Assembly (NCBI GenBank): GCA_016930085.1 | Contig: JAFGHO010000018.1 | Location: forward strand, 62,001 to 126,000 | Direction: 5' to 3' | Origin: Spirochaetales bacterium | GTDB lineage: Bacteria > Spirochaetota > Spirochaetia > SZUA-6 > JAFGRV01 | Length of the DNA stretch: 64,000 bases | Shown here: piece after piece, positions 48,848 through 60,947 of the stretch | Layout: each line of letters begins with the position of its first letter | Numbering within the stretch: the stretch's first letter is position 1 | Notes under the pieces: model-generated | Told to the model about the DNA's origin: nothing | Database searches by the model: none | What the model saw: only the letters and a program-made list of their open reading frames with translations | Made by a program: the position numbers and the translations under genes

Positions 48848-49075
48848 TGAAGCTTCCTTTCTGAAATTCCGGAAACAGGAAGAAAAAACAGCTTCGCTGT
48901 GTTCGGTCCCTCTACTATACAGGAATAAAAAAAAAAAATAAATATGAATTCATCAAAGCTTTACCATTTGCGGGAAGACCGGGGGTCAATCACTTGACAA
49001 TAACGGCATAACCAATTAAGTATACGTAAAGGTCCATGCGCGGAAAAAGGCGTGCGGCATGAGGGACGACAAACG

Positions 49076-51262
49076 ATGTTAATGAAACGCTACTACTGCG
49101 TAAAACAGCATGATATCACGGATTGCGGGGCCGCATGTCTTGCCACGATAACAAAACAATACGGCAGAAAACGTTCGATTGCCGCCATCAGGGAAATTTC
49201 CGGAACAGGACGGATGGGGACGACGGCGTACGGCCTTATCGAGGCCGCGCGCCATATCGGATTTAACGCAAAAGGGGTAAGGGGCACAATCGATCAACTC
49301 ATGACGGAAAAGATTCCCCTTCCGGCCATTGCGCACGTAAAGAAAGGGAATTTCCTCCACTTTGTCGTTATCCACAGAATAAAAAAAAAGACCCTGCTTG
49401 TCGCGGATCCGGCCGAAGGCCTTGTCGTTTATTCAAAAGAGGACTTCGACCGATTATGGACGGGTGTTCTTATCCTTCTTATTCCCGATGATTCATTCAG
49501 ACCCGCTGATGAAAGCAGGGGTATCGCGGGCCGTTTCATCTCGCTTCTGGTTCCTCACAAAAAAATGATCATCGAAATCTTTCTCGCTTCACTGCTATTT
49601 ACCGTACTGGGGATTCTCGGCGCATTTTATTTTAAATTTCTCATCGACGATATCCTTGTTATCGGACTCGAAAACACATTTCATATCATATCACTGGGAA
49701 TGGTCATTCTTACGCTTTTCCGTGTGGTACTCAATGGTTTCAGAAAGCATATCCTTCTCTACCTGAGTCAGAAAATAGACATTTCGCTTATTTTCTCCTT
49801 TTACCGTCACGTCCTGCGATTGTCACTCCCTTTTTTCGACGCGCGGAAAGTGGGAGAAATTCTCTCGCGCCTCAATGACGCTTCGAGAATCAGGGCGACG
49901 ATTTCAAGCGCGACCCTTTCGGTCCTCATCGATACACTCATGATCCTTGTCGGAGGCACGGTGCTGTTTCTGCAGAATCGCGCGTTGTTTTTCGTAAGCC
50001 TTCTCTTTATCCCGTTTTCGATGCTCATCGTCTGGGTTTTTCTCAAACCTTTCAGAAAAGTAAACAGGACCCAGATGCGTGAAGCCGCGGATACCGAAGC
50101 GTATCTCGTCGAATCGCTTTCCGGTATCGCGACGATCAAATCGCTCAACGCGGAAGAGGAAGCCGGTTTTGAAACGGAACGCCGTTTTATACGATACCTC
50201 AAGGCCGCGTTTAAAGGAACATGGCTTTCGAATCTGCAATATTCGCTGCAGGAAATCCTTATGCTGACGGGAAGCATCGTTATTCTTTGGGTCGGGGGAA
50301 TCGAGGTAATGCGCGGAGTCATGAGTCTCGGCCAGCTTATTACCTACAACGCCCTTCTCGCGTATTTCCTCACACCGGTCGGAAATCTTATAAACCTCCA
50401 GCCGGCCCTTCAGGAAGCGGGTGTCGCGGCCGAGCGACTCACCGAAATCCTTGATATCCCCCCCGAAGAAAGCGGAGAGAAAAGTCTTATCCGGTGTGAA
50501 AGCTTCAACGGAGAGGTCGCCATCTCGAACCTGACATTCAGGTACCCCGCGGGCGAACCGGTCCTTACAGGTATATCGTTTTCCGTAAAAAAGGGTGAAA
50601 AAATCGCGATCGTCGGAGAAAGCGGGTCGGGTAAAACGACGATCGCGAAACTGCTTCTCAAATATTATCTCCCTGAAAAAGGCGAGATTACCATTGATTC
50701 TTACAATATAAAGGATATTCATACCGAGAATGTTCGGGAGCACATCGGTTATGTTCCGCAGGATGTCTTTCTTTTCAGCGGCACCATTAGGGAAAATATC
50801 GAATTCGGAAGAAAAAACGAGCGGTTCGAGCTTATCGTCAAAGCCGCGCAGGCGGCACGCGCGGATGAGTTCATCGACAGGTTTCCCCTTCGTTACGATA
50901 CACTCGTCGGCGAACGCGGCGCGACGCTTTCAGGGGGGCAAAGGCAAAGAATCGCGCTTGCCCGTGTCATTCTGAAAAACCCGGACATCCTCATCCTGGA
51001 TGAAGCGACAAGCAGTCTCGATTCCATGACGGAAAAAGCCATTCACGATTCGATCACAACGCTTTTTAAGGGAAAAACAATGATCATCATCGCGCACAGG
51101 TTGAGTACGATCTCAAAAAGCGACAGAATATTATTGCTCGATAAAGGCGATATCGTTGAAAGCGGAAATCACATGAACCTCCTTCGGAAAAGGGGCAAAT
51201 ATTACGCGATGTGGAAGGGGCAATCGGATTCCGATAATTATTCGGAAGCGTCTATGACATGA
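49076..51262 (+). CDS. C39-peptidase ABC exporter (PCAT) of RiPP cluster
   Basis: A 728-residue bifunctional transporter from ATG 49076, with GAGGGA 9 bases upstream; the frame extends to a GTG at 49052. The N-terminal C39 peptidase (1-130) has Q-H-D-I-T-D-C-G-A-A-C-L with catalytic Cys17, His in F-L-H-F-V-V-I-H and Asp in V-A-D-P-A-E-G. Six membrane helices follow (about 150-450). The ATPase domain has Walker A G-E-S-G-S-G-K-T-T, signature L-S-G-G-Q-R-Q-R and Walker B I-L-I-L-D-E-A. Such proteins cut a leader after Gly-Gly while exporting the peptide. The precursor at 52552 has exactly such a leader. It is coupled (ATGA) to the HlyD-like gene. Confidence 0.95.
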   Translation: MLMKRYYCVKQHDITDCGAACLATITKQYGRKRSIAAIREISGTGRMGTTAYGLIEAARHIGFNAKGVRGTIDQLMTEKIPLPAIAHVKKGNFLHFVVIHRIKKKTLLVADPAEGLVVYSKEDFDRLWTGVLILLIPDDSFRPADESRGIAGRFISLLVPHKKMIIEIFLASLLFTVLGILGAFYFKFLIDDILVIGLENTFHIISLGMVILTLFRVVLNGFRKHILLYLSQKIDISLIFSFYRHVLRLSLPFFDARKVGEILSRLNDASRIRATISSATLSVLIDTLMILVGGTVLFLQNRALFFVSLLFIPFSMLIVWVFLKPFRKVNRTQMREAADTEAYLVESLSGIATIKSLNAEEEAGFETERRFIRYLKAAFKGTWLSNLQYSLQEILMLTGSIVILWVGGIEVMRGVMSLGQLITYNALLAYFLTPVGNLINLQPALQEAGVAAERLTEILDIPPEESGEKSLIRCESFNGEVAISNLTFRYPAGEPVLTGISFSVKKGEKIAIVGESGSGKTTIAKLLLKYYLPEKGEITIDSYNIKDIHTENVREHIGYVPQDVFLFSGTIRENIEFGRKNERFELIVKAAQAARADEFIDRFPLRYDTLVGERGATLSGGQRQRIALARVILKNPDILILDEATSSLDSMTEKAIHDSITTLFKGKTMIIIAHRLSTISKSDRILLLDKGDIVESGNHMNLLRKRGKYYAMWKGQSDSDNYSEASMT

Positions 51263-52407
51263 AAGGATACATTCTCGATTTCAAAGACATTACGGACACA
51301 CGGGAAATATACGAGGCAAACCCTCCACCCTTTATGTCGATTTTCATATACGGCATCCTTTCCATGATCGTTCTTTCGATAACCTGGATGTGGTTCGGTG
51401 ATATCAATGAAGTGGTACTGGCGGACGGCATCGTGAGAACAAAGGATCCGGTAAGTATCGTGACAAATATTGTCGAAGGGGAAGTAAACGACGTATTCTT
51501 TGAGGAAGATATCTTCGTGAACAAAGGGGATACACTGTTTACTCTTGAAACGACGACATATAGAATCGAACGGGAAAGCGTATCGGCCCAACTGAATCGT
51601 CTCGAAGCGAGACTCGGAAACCTCAAACTCCTCGAGGAAAGCATCGACAGAAACAAGAATCTTTTCGATGAGGCGAATATAGAATTTCATAACCGCTTCA
51701 ATGCCTATTCGTACGAACTTGAACTGCTTAATCTCGCCATTGTACAGGCAAAAGCCGCTTATGACCGGCATTCATCCATGCAGCTTATGGTTTCGGAAGC
51801 AACGATGGAAGAACTCGAATCACGCCTGAAAGTTGCCGAACTCAATCTGAGAAAATACAAAAGCAGGCACAAAGTCGAAATAAAGGAAGAACGCGACCGG
51901 ATCGAGTCCGAAATCATTATTCTCACCGAAAAACTCGACAATCTCTCGGAAAAAATCGATCTCTGCAATATCAAGGCGCCGATCAGCGGAAAAGTTCAGG
52001 TCGTCACCCATTTTAATCCCGGTGATTACCTGCGCGCCGGAACCGAAATCGCGAGAATCATTCCGGAAACGGACTCGCTTCTCAAAGTGGAACTCATCAT
52101 TTCCAACAAAGATATCGCAAAAATTGAACGGGGAAGAAAAATACGGTACTCTTTTCTCTCGCTTCCGCAGAACAGGTACGGCTTTGCAGAGGGTGAAGTC
52201 ATCACGATCGGCAGTGACATTTCAATGAGGCAGACCTCGAAAGATCCCGTGTTTGTCGTCGAGGGAAGCCTCGACACTCCCGAACTCACGGATTCGAACG
52301 GCGTTCCCACCGCCATAAAAACCGGCATGATATGCAGCGGGAGAATTATCATCAGACAAAAAAAAATAATCGAATACGTCCTTGAAACACTCAATTTTCT
52401 TCCGTGA
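51259..52407 (+). CDS. HlyD-family membrane fusion protein
   Basis: A 382-residue adaptor protein with one N-terminal membrane helix (about 33-55, F-I-Y-G-I-L-S-M-I-V-L-S-I-T-W), a barrel-sandwich lipoyl half (V-S-I-V-T-N-I-V-E-G-E-V-N-D-V near 72), a long coiled coil (about 110-230) and the second lipoyl half (I-K-A-P-I-S-G-K-V near 238). It would link the ABC exporter to the outer membrane. It overlaps the exporter stop by four bases. Together with the C39 exporter it forms a type I-like secretion route for the double-Gly peptide. No TolC-like gene is next to it. Confidence 0.93.
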   Translation: MKGYILDFKDITDTREIYEANPPPFMSIFIYGILSMIVLSITWMWFGDINEVVLADGIVRTKDPVSIVTNIVEGEVNDVFFEEDIFVNKGDTLFTLETTTYRIERESVSAQLNRLEARLGNLKLLEESIDRNKNLFDEANIEFHNRFNAYSYELELLNLAIVQAKAAYDRHSSMQLMVSEATMEELESRLKVAELNLRKYKSRHKVEIKEERDRIESEIIILTEKLDNLSEKIDLCNIKAPISGKVQVVTHFNPGDYLRAGTEIARIIPETDSLLKVELIISNKDIAKIERGRKIRYSFLSLPQNRYGFAEGEVITIGSDISMRQTSKDPVFVVEGSLDTPELTDSNGVPTAIKTGMICSGRIIIRQKKIIEYVLETLNFLP

Positions 52408-52425: not shown

Positions 52426-52453
52426 TTGATTTTTTATATATCTGTGATAGAAT
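52426..52453 (+). promoter_or_regulatory. Possible sigma-70 promoter before RiPP precursor
   Basis: TTGATT (52426-52431) and TAGAAT (52448-52453) are separated by 16 bases and lie 98 bases before the precursor start. This would let the precursor be made in excess of the transporter. Matches are partial. Confidence 0.4.
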
Positions 52454-52551
52454 GATCATGTATCGCTTATATAATAAAAGGAACGTTTTTCCGAAAAAAA
52501 TAATGACGGCGATCCGTTTCTGTTTAAATCATTGCAGTAAGGAGAATGGGT

Positions 52552-52770
52552 ATGAAAAAATTTGAAAAGCTTTCCCTGGTCAAAATGCACGATGAGGAAT
52601 TGAAAAAAGTGATCGGCGGAGCTTCGGCGCTTGAAAGAAACCGCCTGCTGTACGGCATAATTCCCAAGCCGCCCGTGCTGAAATATGGAATCACACCATT
52701 GTACGGGATTATCGTCCAGCCGCTGTACGGGATCTCCGTTCCGTTGACGGAAGAAATCCAGGCCGAATAG
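52552..52770 (+). CDS. RiPP precursor with double-Gly leader and four X-Y-G-I motifs
   Basis: A 72-residue precursor peptide. I use ATG 52552 because AAGGAG (52539-52544) is 7 bases away; the ATG at 52546 is too close to it. The leader (residues 1-23) reads M-K-K-F-E-K-L-S-L-V-K-M, then H-D-E-E-L-K-K-V-I-G-G, a classic double-Gly leader with E-L-x-x-V/I-x-G-G. The 49-residue core has four Tyr-Gly-Ile sites (Tyr34, 45, 51, 59), three as L-Y-G-I and one as K-Y-G-I, spaced by Pro-rich links, and an acidic end. No Cys is present, so lanthionine, disulfide or sactionine rings are excluded. The next gene encodes a radical SAM/SPASM enzyme and the previous two encode a C39 exporter and adaptor, so it is most likely modified and exported. 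Confidence 0.85.
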   Translation: MKKFEKLSLVKMHDEELKKVIGGASALERNRLLYGIIPKPPVLKYGITPLYGIIVQPLYGISVPLTEEIQAE

Positions 52771-52819: not shown

Positions 52820-54361
52820 ATGGCGTATTCATTAAGTAATGCAGTATGGGAGATAACCTACGCCTGCAACATGCGATGCAAACATTGCGGTTCGAGCTGC
52901 GGTGAAAAATATCCTGACGAATTGACAACAGAGGAGGCCCTCGGACTCTGCGATGACCTTGCGGGGCTGGGCCTTCAGATTCTCACGCTTTCAGGGGGCG
53001 AGCCCTTTTTAAGAAAAGACTGGTTTCAACTCGCGAAAAGACTTTCCTCTCAAAACGTACTGGTCAACGCGATCTCGAACGGATGGTATATTACGGAGGA
53101 ACTCATAGACAAGGCGCGGGAAAACGGGCTTGTCAATATCGGAGTCAGTCTCGACGGCTTAAAAGAAACGCATGATTTTATACGGATGAAAGGTTCCTTT
53201 GAACGTGTAGTGAATGCGCTCGAAACCATGAGAAGACTCGGTATGTCTTCTGTCGTGTGTACGAGCATCAATAAAAGGAACCTCCCCGAGCTTCCCGAAC
53301 TATACAAACTCATCAAAGACAAAGGCGTGCAGCGCTGGCAGTTCCAGATCGCTTCGCCGATGGGCAATCTTCTCGAACACATGGAACTGGTCATGGAACC
53401 GAAGGAAATCGATGTCCTCATCGATTTTTGCCATACCGTGGCGTGCGAACGCTTCATGGCGGTCGATATTGCCGATGATATCGGGTATTACAATGTCAAA
53501 CTCAAGGAAATAAGGCAGCAGGAAGAAAACGGCGATAATGAAGTATTTGTCTGGTCGGGATGCAAGGCGGGAAAATGCGTGGCGGGGATACGGGCAAACG
53601 GGGATATAACAGGATGTCTCTCCATACGCGACGATAATTTTATCGAAGGAAATGTCCGTTCCATACCGCTCAAAAAACTCTGGACGAGCCCAGGGGCGTT
53701 CGCGTGGAACCGGGAGATGACGAAATCTCACCTCAAGGGATTCTGTCGTAAATGCCAGTACGGCGCTTACTGTCTTGGCGGATGCACGGGCGCGAAACTC
53801 ACCCTGACCGGTTCGCTGTATGAAAACAAATACTGCTCTTTCAGAATCGCGATTGAAAAAGAAGAAAAGAAAATCGGTGAGATCGACGATTTCAATGAAC
53901 TGATCTCCGGCGCACGCAAAGCGATAGAGGATGAAGAGTATCAGATTGCCGAATTATACCTCTCGCGGGCTCACCGTCTCCGTTTGGATGAACCGGAAAT
54001 ACTCAAAATGCTCGGATTTGTCAATTTCTTTCTCGAAAATTACGAAGAGGCCGAAACGTATAATGAAAAAATCATCGCGATGTATCCTCGGGATGCGTAC
54101 GCGTACAAGGGACTCGGGCTGTGCCTTGCGAAAACGGGAAGGGTTGAAAAAGGTATCGATTATCTGAAGCAAGCGATATCGCTCGCTTCCGATGATTTCA
54201 TGGATCCATACTATGATCTTGCCGTCGTTTTGGATGAGAATGACAGAACGAAAGAGGCGGTCGCCTTGCTCGAAGAGGCAAGAGGTAAATCGCAGCCGTT
54301 TATCGGTCAATCCGAAGATCTCTATCAATCACTAAAAAGTAAACTCACTCATACAAATTAG
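52820..54361 (+). CDS. Radical SAM/SPASM RiPP maturase fused to TPR repeats
   Basis: A 513-residue enzyme. The N-terminal motif A-C-N-M-R-C-K-H-C (Cys16, Cys20, Cys23) binds the SAM [4Fe-4S] cluster. T-L-S-G-G-E-P-F-L near 57 is the SAM-binding G-G-E. A SPASM region (about 250-345) with G-C-K-A-G-K-C, G-C-L-S and then F-C-R-K-C-Q-Y-G-A-Y-C-L-G-G-C and Y-C-S-F would hold auxiliary clusters. Residues 355-505 form about four TPR-like repeats (A-E-L-Y-L-S-R-A, A-E-T-Y-N-E-K-I, G-I-D-Y-L-K-Q-A, A-V-A-L-L-E-E-A), an unusual fusion. It lies 49 bases after the precursor gene and is the only candidate modifier. The X-Tyr-Gly motifs of the precursor recall PlpX-type splicease substrates; other outcomes (epimerase, cyclophane) are possible. 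Confidence 0.9.
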   Translation: MAYSLSNAVWEITYACNMRCKHCGSSCGEKYPDELTTEEALGLCDDLAGLGLQILTLSGGEPFLRKDWFQLAKRLSSQNVLVNAISNGWYITEELIDKARENGLVNIGVSLDGLKETHDFIRMKGSFERVVNALETMRRLGMSSVVCTSINKRNLPELPELYKLIKDKGVQRWQFQIASPMGNLLEHMELVMEPKEIDVLIDFCHTVACERFMAVDIADDIGYYNVKLKEIRQQEENGDNEVFVWSGCKAGKCVAGIRANGDITGCLSIRDDNFIEGNVRSIPLKKLWTSPGAFAWNREMTKSHLKGFCRKCQYGAYCLGGCTGAKLTLTGSLYENKYCSFRIAIEKEEKKIGEIDDFNELISGARKAIEDEEYQIAELYLSRAHRLRLDEPEILKMLGFVNFFLENYEEAETYNEKIIAMYPRDAYAYKGLGLCLAKTGRVEKGIDYLKQAISLASDDFMDPYYDLAVVLDENDRTKEAVALLEEARGKSQPFIGQSEDLYQSLKSKLTHTN

Positions 54362-54434: not shown

Positions 54435-55892
54435 TCAACCGGACACCTGTTTCATGGCATATTCAAAGGCCTCCTGAAGCATTGCCTGCGGCGGTCGCTT
54501 GATAAAACCCTTTTTAATGAGCAGATGAACGGTATCTTGAGCCAATAAAATATCCTTTTTTGCCCTTTCATAGATCTCGTCCCTGCTTTTCGATATTCGC
54601 GCGAGACCGTCTTCTACGGCACTCATTGCGACATCCGCCGCTTCATGGGGAAAAACATCGGTTTCATCCATTGCGGCGATGATATTTTCAGGGTGAATAC
54701 CCCTTTTTTCCGCAAAGGTGGCAAGCGAATTTGCAGCGGCGATCACCATCCTGTCCGATATTTTCGTTGCCCGGATCAAGAGCGCGCCTTTGAGGATTCC
54801 GGGAAATCCCAATGCATTGTTGACCTGGTTGGGGAAGTCCCCCCTCCCCGTTGCGACAATAAAAGCGCCGGCTTCCTTTGCCGCGTATGGATAAATTTCA
54901 GGGACCGGATTGGCGCAGGCGAACACGATCGGCCGTTCATTCATACGGCCGATCCAATCCCGCTTTACGATATCCGGACCGGGTCTGGAAAGCGCGATCA
55001 ACACATCTGCGCCCGTCATCGCTTTCTCGATATCGGTAACGCAGGAGGGATTTGTCTTATTACAGAGTTCCCATTTTCTGTCGTCCGGGGAATCCGTTTT
55101 CAGGTCATCACGTTTTTTATGGAGGGCGCCCTGTGAATCGAACATAATAATCCGGCCGGGATCCGCTCCGGCTTCGCAGATGATTCGGGCGATGGCCGTA
55201 TTCGAGGCGCCCGCGCCGATAAAGACGGCTCGCATGCTATTCATCGCTTTTCCGGCAAGCTTGAGCGCGTTAAACAACGCCCCGAGGGTAACGCAGGCCG
55301 TTCCCTCGGCATCATCATGCCAGACGGGAATTGAACATCGCTCTTTCAATCTGTCCAGTACCGTATAACAGTTAGGTTGTGAAATATCTTCGAGGTTGAT
55401 CGCCCCGAAACTCGGTTCCACCATGGAAACAAAATCAATGATCTTTTCAGGATCATGTTCTCCGTCTTTATTTCTGCTGTCGATGCAGAGGGCCGTCGCT
55501 TCGAGTCCGCCAAGATATTTCATGAGAAAGGCCTTTCCCTCCATGACACCGAGTCCTCCGGGCGGCGTACAGTCCCCGTCACCGAGTACACATGTGGAAT
55601 CGCTGACCACCGCCACATGATTTCCTCGTCCGGTCAGCTCGAACGAGGTGTCGTTGTCGTCACGGATCGCGGTCGAAACACCCGATACTCCGGGTGTATA
55701 CCAGACATTGAACCAGTTGAAACCGAAAACCCCTGCCATCGGAATGGTCTGCATTTTCCCACCGTAAAACCGGTGTGCCAAAAGACTGAGTTTTTTAAGG
55801 AAAATCGTTCGTGCACGCGCCGTGATTTCGGGAGAAAGTCTTTCCGAGAAGAGATTGTCGATATTCTGCAATGTTATTTTCACTTTCTTCAC
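54435..55892 (-). CDS. NAD(P)-dependent malic enzyme
   Basis: A 485-residue malate dehydrogenase (decarboxylating). It has Y-T-P-G-V-S near residue 66, L-G-D-G-D-C-T-P-P-G-G near 102, the metal and catalytic region H-D-D-A-E-G-T-A near 190 and the NAD fold motif G-A-G-A-S-N-T-A near 222. F-A-C-A-N-P-V-P-E near 320 and G-R-G-D-F-P-N-Q-V-N-N near 344 are also typical. It starts at GTG 55892 with GGAGG about 10 bases before it. It makes pyruvate, CO2 and NAD(P)H from malate in central metabolism. It is not related to its neighbours and stands alone, convergent with the RiPP cluster. Confidence 0.92.
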   Translation of the reverse strand: MKKVKITLQNIDNLFSERLSPEITARARTIFLKKLSLLAHRFYGGKMQTIPMAGVFGFNWFNVWYTPGVSGVSTAIRDDNDTSFELTGRGNHVAVVSDSTCVLGDGDCTPPGGLGVMEGKAFLMKYLGGLEATALCIDSRNKDGEHDPEKIIDFVSMVEPSFGAINLEDISQPNCYTVLDRLKERCSIPVWHDDAEGTACVTLGALFNALKLAGKAMNSMRAVFIGAGASNTAIARIICEAGADPGRIIMFDSQGALHKKRDDLKTDSPDDRKWELCNKTNPSCVTDIEKAMTGADVLIALSRPGPDIVKRDWIGRMNERPIVFACANPVPEIYPYAAKEAGAFIVATGRGDFPNQVNNALGFPGILKGALLIRATKISDRMVIAAANSLATFAEKRGIHPENIIAAMDETDVFPHEAADVAMSAVEDGLARISKSRDEIYERAKKDILLAQDTVHLLIKKGFIKRPPQAMLQEAFEYAMKQVSG

Positions 55893-59130: not shown

Positions 59131-60312
59131 ATGGATAATTTTTTCTGGCTTCCTTCGATACGCATTAAAGGATACCGTCCATTTAATGACGTGTTATTCA
59201 GATTCAGGAAACTACAGGTTATCGTCGGTGCGAACGGATCGGGAAAATCGAGTCTATTTGAATTCCTGAAATTTCTCCGGGATGCATGCTATCAGGAAAT
59301 ACCCCCTGAAATAGTCAGCGGTACCATTGGACAGCAAATTTTCCATAAACCGGGCGAGGACAAACTCTGGTGGAGTGCGGAAATTGATTTAAGTGAGAGA
59401 GTCCCGCTTTATTTCCAGGGAGAATTGATAGGGCCCATCGGTTCAACGAAAATCATATTCGAACGGGTCATTTCAAAAAGGCCGTTACATCCGGAATTCA
59501 ACGCCGGCTACAAATTCCTGGATTTGAGAAACGGGAAAGGGAACATCCGGGATCCAAGAGACGGCAAATTCAAACGAAGAGAGTGGGATTTGAAGAAACC
59601 AAATCTCCTCGGTTTGAGTGCAATCACGGATCCATCGTTATTTACGTTATATAAATTGAGAGAGTTTGTCCGCGGATGGAGATTCTATAATTCCTTTAAC
59701 ATAAACAATGAAAAAATAAGGAAATCGGTCCCGACAAGCCAGGAACCTGTTTTACACGAGGACGCCGGAAATCTGAGCGCCGTTCTGTTTTATCTTATGA
59801 GTGAGCACAGAGACAAATTCGAAGAACTAAAATCTGTTATTAAAGAAGCCGTACCCGGATTCAGTAATCTTAACGTCAAAGCACGAGGAGGGCCGGGGGA
59901 GGTTATTGCATTCTGGCAGGAAAACAACATCGACCAGGAATTATCGCTGGCCGATTTATCAGACGGAACACTCCGATTTATTTCATGGGCAGTTCTTTCG
60001 ATAATGCCTCATCCGCCTTCATTGATCTGCATTGACGAACCGGACCAGGGGGTTCATCCGAGAACATTACCGATATTGGCGGGACTTTTTTTAAAGGCAA
60101 CGGAACGAACACAAATGATAGTTGCGACACATTCATCATATTTCCTTACACAATTCGATCTAAAGAATATATCCGTTATGAAGAAATTTGAAGGAAGAAG
60201 TGTTTACTGCAGAGTTACCGATTCACAGACATTAATCGACGACCTTGAGGATTTCGGCAGCGAGGAAATCGAAAGAATGCATCGATCTGATGAACTCGAG
60301 GCTCTTTCATGA
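59131..60312 (+). CDS. AAA_21/RecF-like ATPase of putative two-gene defence system
   Basis: A 393-residue ABC-type ATPase of the AAA_15/AAA_21 group. It has Walker A V-G-A-N-G-S-G-K-S-S-L near residue 31, a signature-like L-A-D-L-S-D-G-T-L-R-F near 273, Walker B L-I-C-I-D-E-P-D-Q-G-V-H near 297 and H-loop I-V-A-T-H-S near 330. Proteins of this family paired with TOPRIM or DUF4276/DUF4435 partners act in phage defence (as in PARIS or OLD-type systems). Its stop overlaps the ATG of the next gene (60309-60312). The two genes are visibly richer in A and T than those on both sides, a mark of recent transfer. AGAGGAAT precedes ATG 59131. Confidence 0.85.
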   Translation: MDNFFWLPSIRIKGYRPFNDVLFRFRKLQVIVGANGSGKSSLFEFLKFLRDACYQEIPPEIVSGTIGQQIFHKPGEDKLWWSAEIDLSERVPLYFQGELIGPIGSTKIIFERVISKRPLHPEFNAGYKFLDLRNGKGNIRDPRDGKFKRREWDLKKPNLLGLSAITDPSLFTLYKLREFVRGWRFYNSFNINNEKIRKSVPTSQEPVLHEDAGNLSAVLFYLMSEHRDKFEELKSVIKEAVPGFSNLNVKARGGPGEVIAFWQENNIDQELSLADLSDGTLRFISWAVLSIMPHPPSLICIDEPDQGVHPRTLPILAGLFLKATERTQMIVATHSSYFLTQFDLKNISVMKKFEGRSVYCRVTDSQTLIDDLEDFGSEEIERMHRSDELEALS

Positions 60313-60947
60313 AAGAAATATTCGTGTATGTCGAAGGCCCGAGCGATAAATTGGGTTTGGAAGCCATTCTATACAATCATATTCAATTAGCTTCTCAGAA
60401 AAATAATTATATTTATTTTATTGCTCTTAACGGCAAAGACGCGTTACTCAATAAAGGCCCGATAAAAGCGATTAATATATTGAAAAACAAGAAAAACAGC
60501 CATGTTTTTATCGTACCCGATCTTTATCCTCAAAACAAACCGTTTCCTCATGCAAGCTATGAAGAATTAAAAAATGAAGTGGAGAAACGCTTTTTATATG
60601 AAATAAAGAGGAAGAATTCGGATGCAGGATTAATACATCGATTTCATGTACACTGTTTCAAGTACGAGCTTGAAGTTTTATTATTGGCTTCACCTGAAAT
60701 ATTATTAAAAAGATTGGGAAAGGAAAAGATAAGACAAACATGGAAAATACCCGTCGAAAATCAAAATTTCAACAAACCTCCCAAAAAAGTAATAGAATTT
60801 CTTTTCTCAGAAAATAAAAAAAGATATAAAGATACAGCCGATATACCATGGGTACTGGAGCGTTCTCAACTAAAATTATTAATGGAAAGATGCCCACAAA
60901 ATTTCACTCCATTTATCGAAGATCTTTTAGCCATTATTTCAGCTTAA
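60309..60947 (+). CDS. DUF4276/TOPRIM-like partner of the ATPase
   Basis: A 212-residue protein that begins K-E-I-F-V-Y-V-E-G-P-S-D-K, the E-G-x-x-D start seen in DUF4276-type TOPRIM-like proteins, followed by H-V-F-I-V-P-D-L-Y-P near residue 68, where a TOPRIM D-x-D would lie (only one Asp visible). C-F-K-Y-E-L-E-V-L-L near 117 is the third usual block. If TOPRIM, it would be the nuclease effector released or triggered by the ATPase. It is translationally coupled to the ATPase gene and is AT-rich like it. Its last four bases overlap the convergent PfkB gene. The family is assigned from memory of this pattern. Confidence 0.7.
   Translation: MKEIFVYVEGPSDKLGLEAILYNHIQLASQKNNYIYFIALNGKDALLNKGPIKAINILKNKKNSHVFIVPDLYPQNKPFPHASYEELKNEVEKRFLYEIKRKNSDAGLIHRFHVHCFKYELEVLLLASPEILLKRLGKEKIRQTWKIPVENQNFNKPPKKVIEFLFSENKKRYKDTADIPWVLERSQLKLLMERCPQNFTPFIEDLLAIISA

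Follow-up and report, generated by a model that had tools for sequence, protein, structure and literature searches.

A predicted tyramine-splicing radical SAM enzyme with a TPR domain and its four-site precursor peptide in a Spirochaetales genome

We describe an operon in a 64,000-nucleotide stretch of a Spirochaetales genome (the window, that is, the whole stretch that was analysed), in which a small precursor peptide with repeated X-Tyr-Gly (XYG) sites lies beside a radical SAM/SPASM enzyme. The best reading of the locus, which we hold at a probability of about 0.75 from comparative sequence analysis, is that tyramine would be excised at the sites of the peptide's core, giving up to four α-ketoamides. 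A sequence-only reading made earlier had proposed a multi-site splicease; the way of working that it implied is well supported by conservation of the sites and by the enzyme's ancestry, while strict membership of the PlpX family was not borne out.

Results

Four genes lie in a row on the + strand, encoding an exporter, an HlyD adaptor, the precursor and the radical SAM/SPASM enzyme; by this gene order, which is seen directly, the locus is a self-contained RiPP operon. The peptidase-containing (C39) ABC exporter (49052-51262) scores 675 bits against TIGR01193 (bacteriocin_ABC; cut-off 524) and matches Peptidase_C39, ABC_membrane and ABC_tran. Its gene overlaps by 4 nt that of its partner, an HlyD-type membrane fusion protein (51259-52407, + strand; HlyD_3 53 bits, over the gathering score; TIGR01843 152 bits, under the cut-off). 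The enzyme, a predicted splicease of 513 amino acids by Pfam, NCBIfam, structural model and tree, is encoded at 52820-54361. Since a malic-enzyme-like gene (recognised by eye) occupies 54435-55892 on the opposite strand, there is no space for a further partner gene after it. Scans for promoters and terminators gave matches no more frequent than in shuffled sequences, and one promoter-like match at 52426-52453 was given no weight. The surrounding draft genome comprises 5.36 Mb in 135 contigs, and the nearest named relatives that GTDB records give for it are MAGs of Spirochaetales. Farther along the window (59131-60947), an AAA ATPase gene (weak MAD3/PtuA-like profile match) is followed, with a 4-nt overlap, by a gene for a DUF4276 protein; the two look like a defence-type pair.

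The precursor open reading frame (52546-52770, + strand) reads MGMKKFEKLSLVKMHDEELKKVIGG/ASALERNRLLYGIIPKPPVLKYGITPLYGIIVQPLYGISVPLTEEIQAE. We prefer ATG 52552 as its start because a Shine-Dalgarno sequence, AAGGAG, read at 52539-52544 (+), ends 7 nt ahead of it. From this start the peptide has 72 amino acids (stop at 52770) and consists of a double-glycine leader, MKKFEKLSLVKMHDEELKKVIGG, ending in KKVIGG (52552-52620, +), and a 49-residue core (52621-52767, +), with KKVIGG/ASA as the junction. Matches of the leader to TIGR04149 and TIGR01847 were weak and below the cut-offs, and a Pfam scan of the precursor gave no match. A double-glycine leader next to an exporter that passes the TIGR01193 cut-off and carries a Peptidase_C39 domain is the combination that marks a C39-processed peptide, and the exporter is predicted to cut the precursor behind its Gly-Gly and to carry the core out of the cell.

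The core contains four sites, all on the + strand: LYGI (52648-52659), KYGI (52681-52692), LYGI (52699-52710) and LYGI (52723-52734). Gly-Ile after each of Tyr34, Tyr45, Tyr51 and Tyr59, and Leu, Lys, Leu and Leu ahead of them, had been reported from the sequence alone; both statements are confirmed, and the numbering fits ATG 52552. The array is no DNA-level repeat, since the four motifs differ in their codons (CTGTACGGCATA, AAATATGGAATC, TTGTACGGGATT and CTGTACGGGATC), and an origin of the repeats in recent DNA duplication was rejected on the same ground. When the core was shuffled 200,000 times, four YG appeared in one shuffle and four YGI in none; the window has 456 ORFs with 40 amino acids or more, and the precursor has the highest YG density among them.

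Elsewhere in the same genome (L146:9396-9575, contig C13) lies another double-glycine peptide, GGSPTIPLYGVVPYL..., with one PLYGVVP site and a leader similar to that of the window precursor. It adjoins two more double-glycine peptides, a C39 exporter and an HlyD gene, with no radical SAM gene nearby, and is possibly a substrate in trans.

The enzyme has the radical SAM barrel cysteines C16, C20 and C23 and seven SPASM cysteines (C248, C266, C309, C312, C318, C322 and C339); the CxxxCxxC motif and all seven are invariant in 32 aligned sequences, which identifies a radical SAM enzyme with a SPASM domain. Its AlphaFold2 model (mean pLDDT 92.5), for which four alignment rows from plasmid records were left out, begins directly with the barrel and ends in a helical TPR domain (about 340-512) that is backed by Pfam TPR matches and is found in most members of the enzyme's clade. 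Because the model begins at the barrel, the enzyme lacks an N-terminal RRE, and neither the model nor a Pfam scan gave an RRE domain in the enzyme or in the rest of the window operon. A 71-residue PlpY-like query returned nothing from five same-family genomes, a weak negative because the search had no positive control. The TPR domain may take over substrate recognition.

Short members of the clade, in Agathobacter and Blautia, have no TPR tail and a single MYGT site, and no PlpY-like neighbour is annotated in the Agathobacter record. A tie between the TPR tail and multi-site substrates was considered and is not clean, as loci with NHLP leaders (L053, L054, L067 and L083) combine the tail with one site. 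The window's own genome also encodes a TPR-less paralogue of 41% identity (L124:5873-7057), with no XYG gene beside it. In a fold search against the PDB, the nearest structures were SkfB, PqqE, SuiB and anSME, with the epimerase EpeE lower; the fold is generic SPASM and does not discriminate.

All NCBIfam scores of the enzyme are below the cut-offs. The GDL maturase family TIGR03913 gave 249.7 bits (cut-off 592) and the PlpX family TIGR04103 244.7 bits (cut-off 725; a Nostoc positive control scored 853.1), and these two lead the other profiles (TIGR04133 162, AhbD 156 and NirJ 152 bits) by about 85 bits. The profiles of the crosslinkers WgkB and DynA gave 109 and 70 bits, far under their cut-offs. 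Identity to the PlpX/GDL enzymes is 29-31% (29% to the Nostoc PlpX-type protein). The TIGR04103 profile is named 'nif11-class peptide radical SAM maturase 3', and we take it to be equivalent to IPR026482. In one review (PMC11002830), PlpX is placed in IPR026482 and assigned to an uncharacterised subclass of SPASM enzymes that accompany nif11 precursors and an RRE protein. The Nostoc TIGR04103 enzyme (C057) has a precursor ending in ALYGLPPELF and a 71-amino-acid gene just downstream, as in plpAXY; from these features and the published description of PlpX (PMC11002830), TIGR04103 was taken as the PlpX family.

In a careful tree, in which PlpX was represented by family (the TIGR04103 Nostoc protein, not the characterised Pleurocapsa sequence), the window enzyme falls in its own 100/100 clade and the PlpX/GDL enzymes form another 100/100 clade. 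A superclade of moderate support (89/82) unites the two, its inner branching order being unsettled, and TIGR04133, AhbD, NirJ, MftC and TIGR04053 fall outside, MftC and NirJ on long branches. Cyclophane synthases, such as XncB, OscB and MscB, and proteusin epimerases are compared at most by profile scores, outside the tree. By these sequence comparisons the enzyme is in a sister-level clade to the PlpX family and is not a strict member. The refuting condition attached to the earlier reading, a place in another SPASM clade such as that of epimerases or cyclophane synthases, was mostly escaped, and the suggested kinship with PlpX-type spliceases stands in part: the enzyme lies beside them, with StsB sactipeptide, WgkB, DynA, MftC, NirJ and AhbD lower or outside, but as a sister-level clade that stays under the TIGR04103 cut-off.

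Close homologues of the enzyme (47-57% identity over the full length) occurred only in five same-family genomes among the 61 genomes searched, and an XY[G/A] gene adjoins 10 of the 11 in these genomes, window included. The neighbours carry LYGI three times (L002/L039), KYGI and MYGV (L008/L042), RYAI and LYGI (L010/L043) or MYGI (L005/L126); those at L003/L127, L004/L041, L006/L125, L007/L040 and L009/L044 are larger proteins with an N-terminal hydrophobic segment, XYG in Pro-rich linkers and dockerin repeats. The sole exception is L013/L052, where the adjacent gene has no XYG-type site. At L125:5713-6270 (own genome, contig C61), L127:5627-6547, L040, L041 and L044, dockerin-type proteins of this build, hydrophobic at the N-terminus and with XYG in their Pro-rich linkers, lie upstream of TPR radical SAM homologues and are possibly spliced extracellular proteins.

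A scan of GTDB genomes added clade members in Bacteroidota, Aminicenantes, many Bacillota and Thiodiazotropha. Precursors with five LYGI sites were found in Pseudobacteroides cellulosolvens (L056), with six KYG/LYG sites at L096, with five sites in Anaerobacterium (L050), with four sites, downstream of the enzyme, in Acetivibrio mesophilus (L063), and with three LYGI in 49 residues in Bacteroidales (L047). Counted mechanically under fixed rules, an upstream ORF with at least two YG was present at 22 of 32 TPR-clade loci; the corresponding counts were 1 of 32 for the opposite strand, 3 of 32 with the dipeptide reversed to GY, and 1 of 13 at unrelated radical SAM loci of the same scan (Fisher p 2.3e-4 for this last comparison, only a guide because related sequences are not independent). 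Most of the ten TPR-clade loci below two upstream YG have a single or a downstream site.

The neighbouring precursors have 1 to about 10 XY[G/A/N] sites and comprise double-glycine peptides, NHLP peptides, and dockerin or chagasin proteins. The site consensus is P-[LK]-Y-G-[IV]-x-P (60 sites in 20 curated peptides, picked only for YG or YA), with Ile or Val after YG/YA in 57 of the 60. A few sites have Ala or Asn replacing Gly, and some in dockerin- and chagasin-type substrates have Thr, Ala, Phe or Tyr at +2; constant across substrates are Tyr and a small residue, and X varies. The consensus resembles the tag PIRPLYGLPI derived from PlpA2, which is a substrate of the proven splicease PlpXY (PMC10533398). 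An X-Tyr-Gly precursor beside the enzyme gene, the arrangement of spliceotide loci, is therefore found in the window and in the clade. The pairing of enzyme and precursor, at first only assumed, is supported by two separate searches in which XYG genes lie beside homologues of the adjacent enzyme.

XYG neighbours also occur in several branches of the superclade, with the PlpX/GDL enzymes (LYG, PYG, MYx), in Methanosarcina and in Asgard archaea, and the parsimonious reading is thus that XYG chemistry is old in the superclade; no such neighbour was seen beside its Elusimicrobia members or the own-genome paralogue L011. In Methanosarcina sp. UBA289 (L077), a 43-residue peptide with IYGV and LYGV lies 394-263 nt upstream of the ORF of a short homologue, a candidate archaeal system. 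In Lokiarchaeota and Heimdallarchaeota (L084, L086), tandem membrane proteins of about 130-165 amino acids beside a short enzyme relative mostly end in XYGV[FY] (LYGVF, WYGVY, AYGVY; LYGVY, EYGVF, DYGVF, RYGVY, MYGVF). DUF1843 peptides beside GDL maturases (L015:5153-5866, L016:5025-5740) carry LYG, PYG, MYA, LYA or MYM close to the N-terminus; this points to a possible role of DUF1843, a domain of unknown function, as a splicease-type substrate.

Discussion

In the mechanism that we propose, the TPR-fused radical SAM/SPASM enzyme would bind the double-glycine-leader precursor and act on up to four X-Tyr-Gly sites. At each of them the Tyr would lose a tyramine equivalent (C8H9NO, 135.07 Da), and X would become linked to what had been the Tyr carbonyl. 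The core would be left with up to four α-keto-β-amino residues, three from Leu and one from Lys; its calculated mass is 5405.04 Da unmodified and 4864.77 Da with four splices. The C39 exporter would then remove the leader after Gly-Gly and secrete the core. Excision of tyramine at XYG is known from a characterised member of the superclade (PMC10533398, PMC11002830), and several splicing events in one precursor have been reported to be possible (PMC10373908).

The PlpXY spliceotide system of Pleurocapsa sp. PCC 7319 shares with the window locus the XYG sites, a radical SAM/SPASM enzyme of the same superclade and the site context (RPLYGLPI in PlpA2, QPLYGISV in the window). It differs in its nif11 or nitrile-hydratase-like leaders, whereas the window has a double-glycine bacteriocin leader and a C39 exporter; in addition, the window enzyme has a TPR tail, and PlpY was not found at its locus. 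The GDL maturases (TIGR03913, DUF1843 peptides) belong to the same superclade and likewise adjoin small peptides with LYG, PYG, MYA or LYA near the N-terminus, but theirs is a single site, N-terminal to the DUF1843 domain, and they branch with the PlpX-type enzyme and not with the window clade. Class II bacteriocins exported by C39/PCAT transporters have the same kind of leader, exporter and adaptor, to which the window adds a modifying radical SAM enzyme and XYG repeats.

Against splicing we counted the score of 245 where the cut-off is 725, the identity of 29-31%, and that no PlpY or RRE was found though PlpX works with PlpY; further, the moderate superclade support, the Ala/Asn sites, the Elusimicrobia members and L011 that have no XYG neighbour, and Ile/Val at +2, which also suits an i/i+2 cyclophane. 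This last point leads to the strongest rival, three-residue cyclophanes, in which a C-C bond from Tyr (i) to Cβ of Ile/Val (i+2) would close four small rings at -2 Da each. The near-constant Ile/Val fits the i to i+2 spacing, and three-residue cyclophanes are made by SPASM enzymes that target conserved motifs (PMC11002830). We nevertheless consider it unlikely. The same review lists Arg, Asn, Asp and Ser, and neither Ile nor Val, as characterised partners of the aromatic residue (PMC11002830); Leu or Val stands at +2 in PlpXY tags as well (PIRPLYGLPI; AVAAGYGVVFP; PMC10533398); WgkB and DynA score far lower on the enzyme than the 245-250 bits of the PlpX/GDL families; and the Thr, Ala, Phe and Tyr at +2 in dockerin- and chagasin-type substrates suit a reaction at the backbone, not at Cβ. 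The triceptide enzymes XncB, OscB and MscB are, like the window enzyme, SPASM enzymes acting on conserved aromatic motifs, but they come from different families and use Asn, Asp, Arg and Ser as crosslink partners. With Ile at i+2, the window falls outside the cyclophane families, as judged by the WgkB and DynA profiles.

The diversity of SPASM chemistry, the action of MftC on Tyr and a fold that does not discriminate would all allow another change centred on Tyr or X, such as oxidative decarboxylation, epimerisation of X or Tyr crosslinks between sites. We regard such a change as decidedly unlikely, given that MftC and NirJ branch outside the superclade, albeit on long branches, and that Tyr with its small residue is constant across substrates while X varies. 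Most improbable, in our view, is an unmodified bacteriocin in which the YGI repeats serve structure or cleavage, with the radical SAM enzyme acting elsewhere. The L146 peptide, with its C39 exporter and no radical SAM gene nearby, would fit this, but XYG accompanies the enzyme gene even where leader types and protein architectures otherwise have little in common.

Tyramine excision, the reading that we prefer, bears on the function of the product. Spliced units are α-ketoamides with X in the P1 position. As each site would become an α-ketoamide with Leu or Lys at P1, the core is probably a multi-headed serine/cysteine protease inhibitor. The β-residues of spliceotides are reported to confer protease inhibition (PMC10373908). 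A role in protease inhibition is independently supported by sister loci (L051, L055 and L060), in which a chagasin domain (PF09394, I42; a cysteine-protease inhibitor family), scoring over the gathering threshold, is fused to XYG arrays. At L055:4083-4910, L051:3862-4806 and L060:3923-4774, the chagasin protein has about 5-10 XYG/XYN sites at its C-terminus, and its gene immediately precedes that of a TPR radical SAM enzyme; L061, L062 and L064 look similar by eye, with L064 below Pfam significance. The family is widespread, and its products are probably protease inhibitors with several heads.

A wider picture, to which we give slightly less than even odds, is that of a PlpY-independent, TPR-bearing branch of spliceases. 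These enzymes would install arrays of up to about ten α-ketoamide warheads per chain in bacterial peptides, dockerin proteins and chagasin-fused inhibitors, with short relatives acting on Asgard membrane proteins, and X would set the protease specificity of each warhead. The novelty of the window clade is uncertain, since part of it may already be covered by the main spliceotide survey (Scott et al. 2022, Chem 8, 2659).

If the splicing reading is true, tyramine splicing would not be bound to nif11-type leaders and a PlpY partner. A natural enzyme that works at several sites would also serve protein labelling, a field in need of more processive spliceases (PMC10533398). The reaction would offer a modular route to several reactive ketoamides, their side chains open to choice, at different points of one genetically encoded chain, and it would apparently need no separate recognition protein. 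Through the chagasin fusions the modification would be tied directly to protease inhibition, so that its biological role becomes testable.
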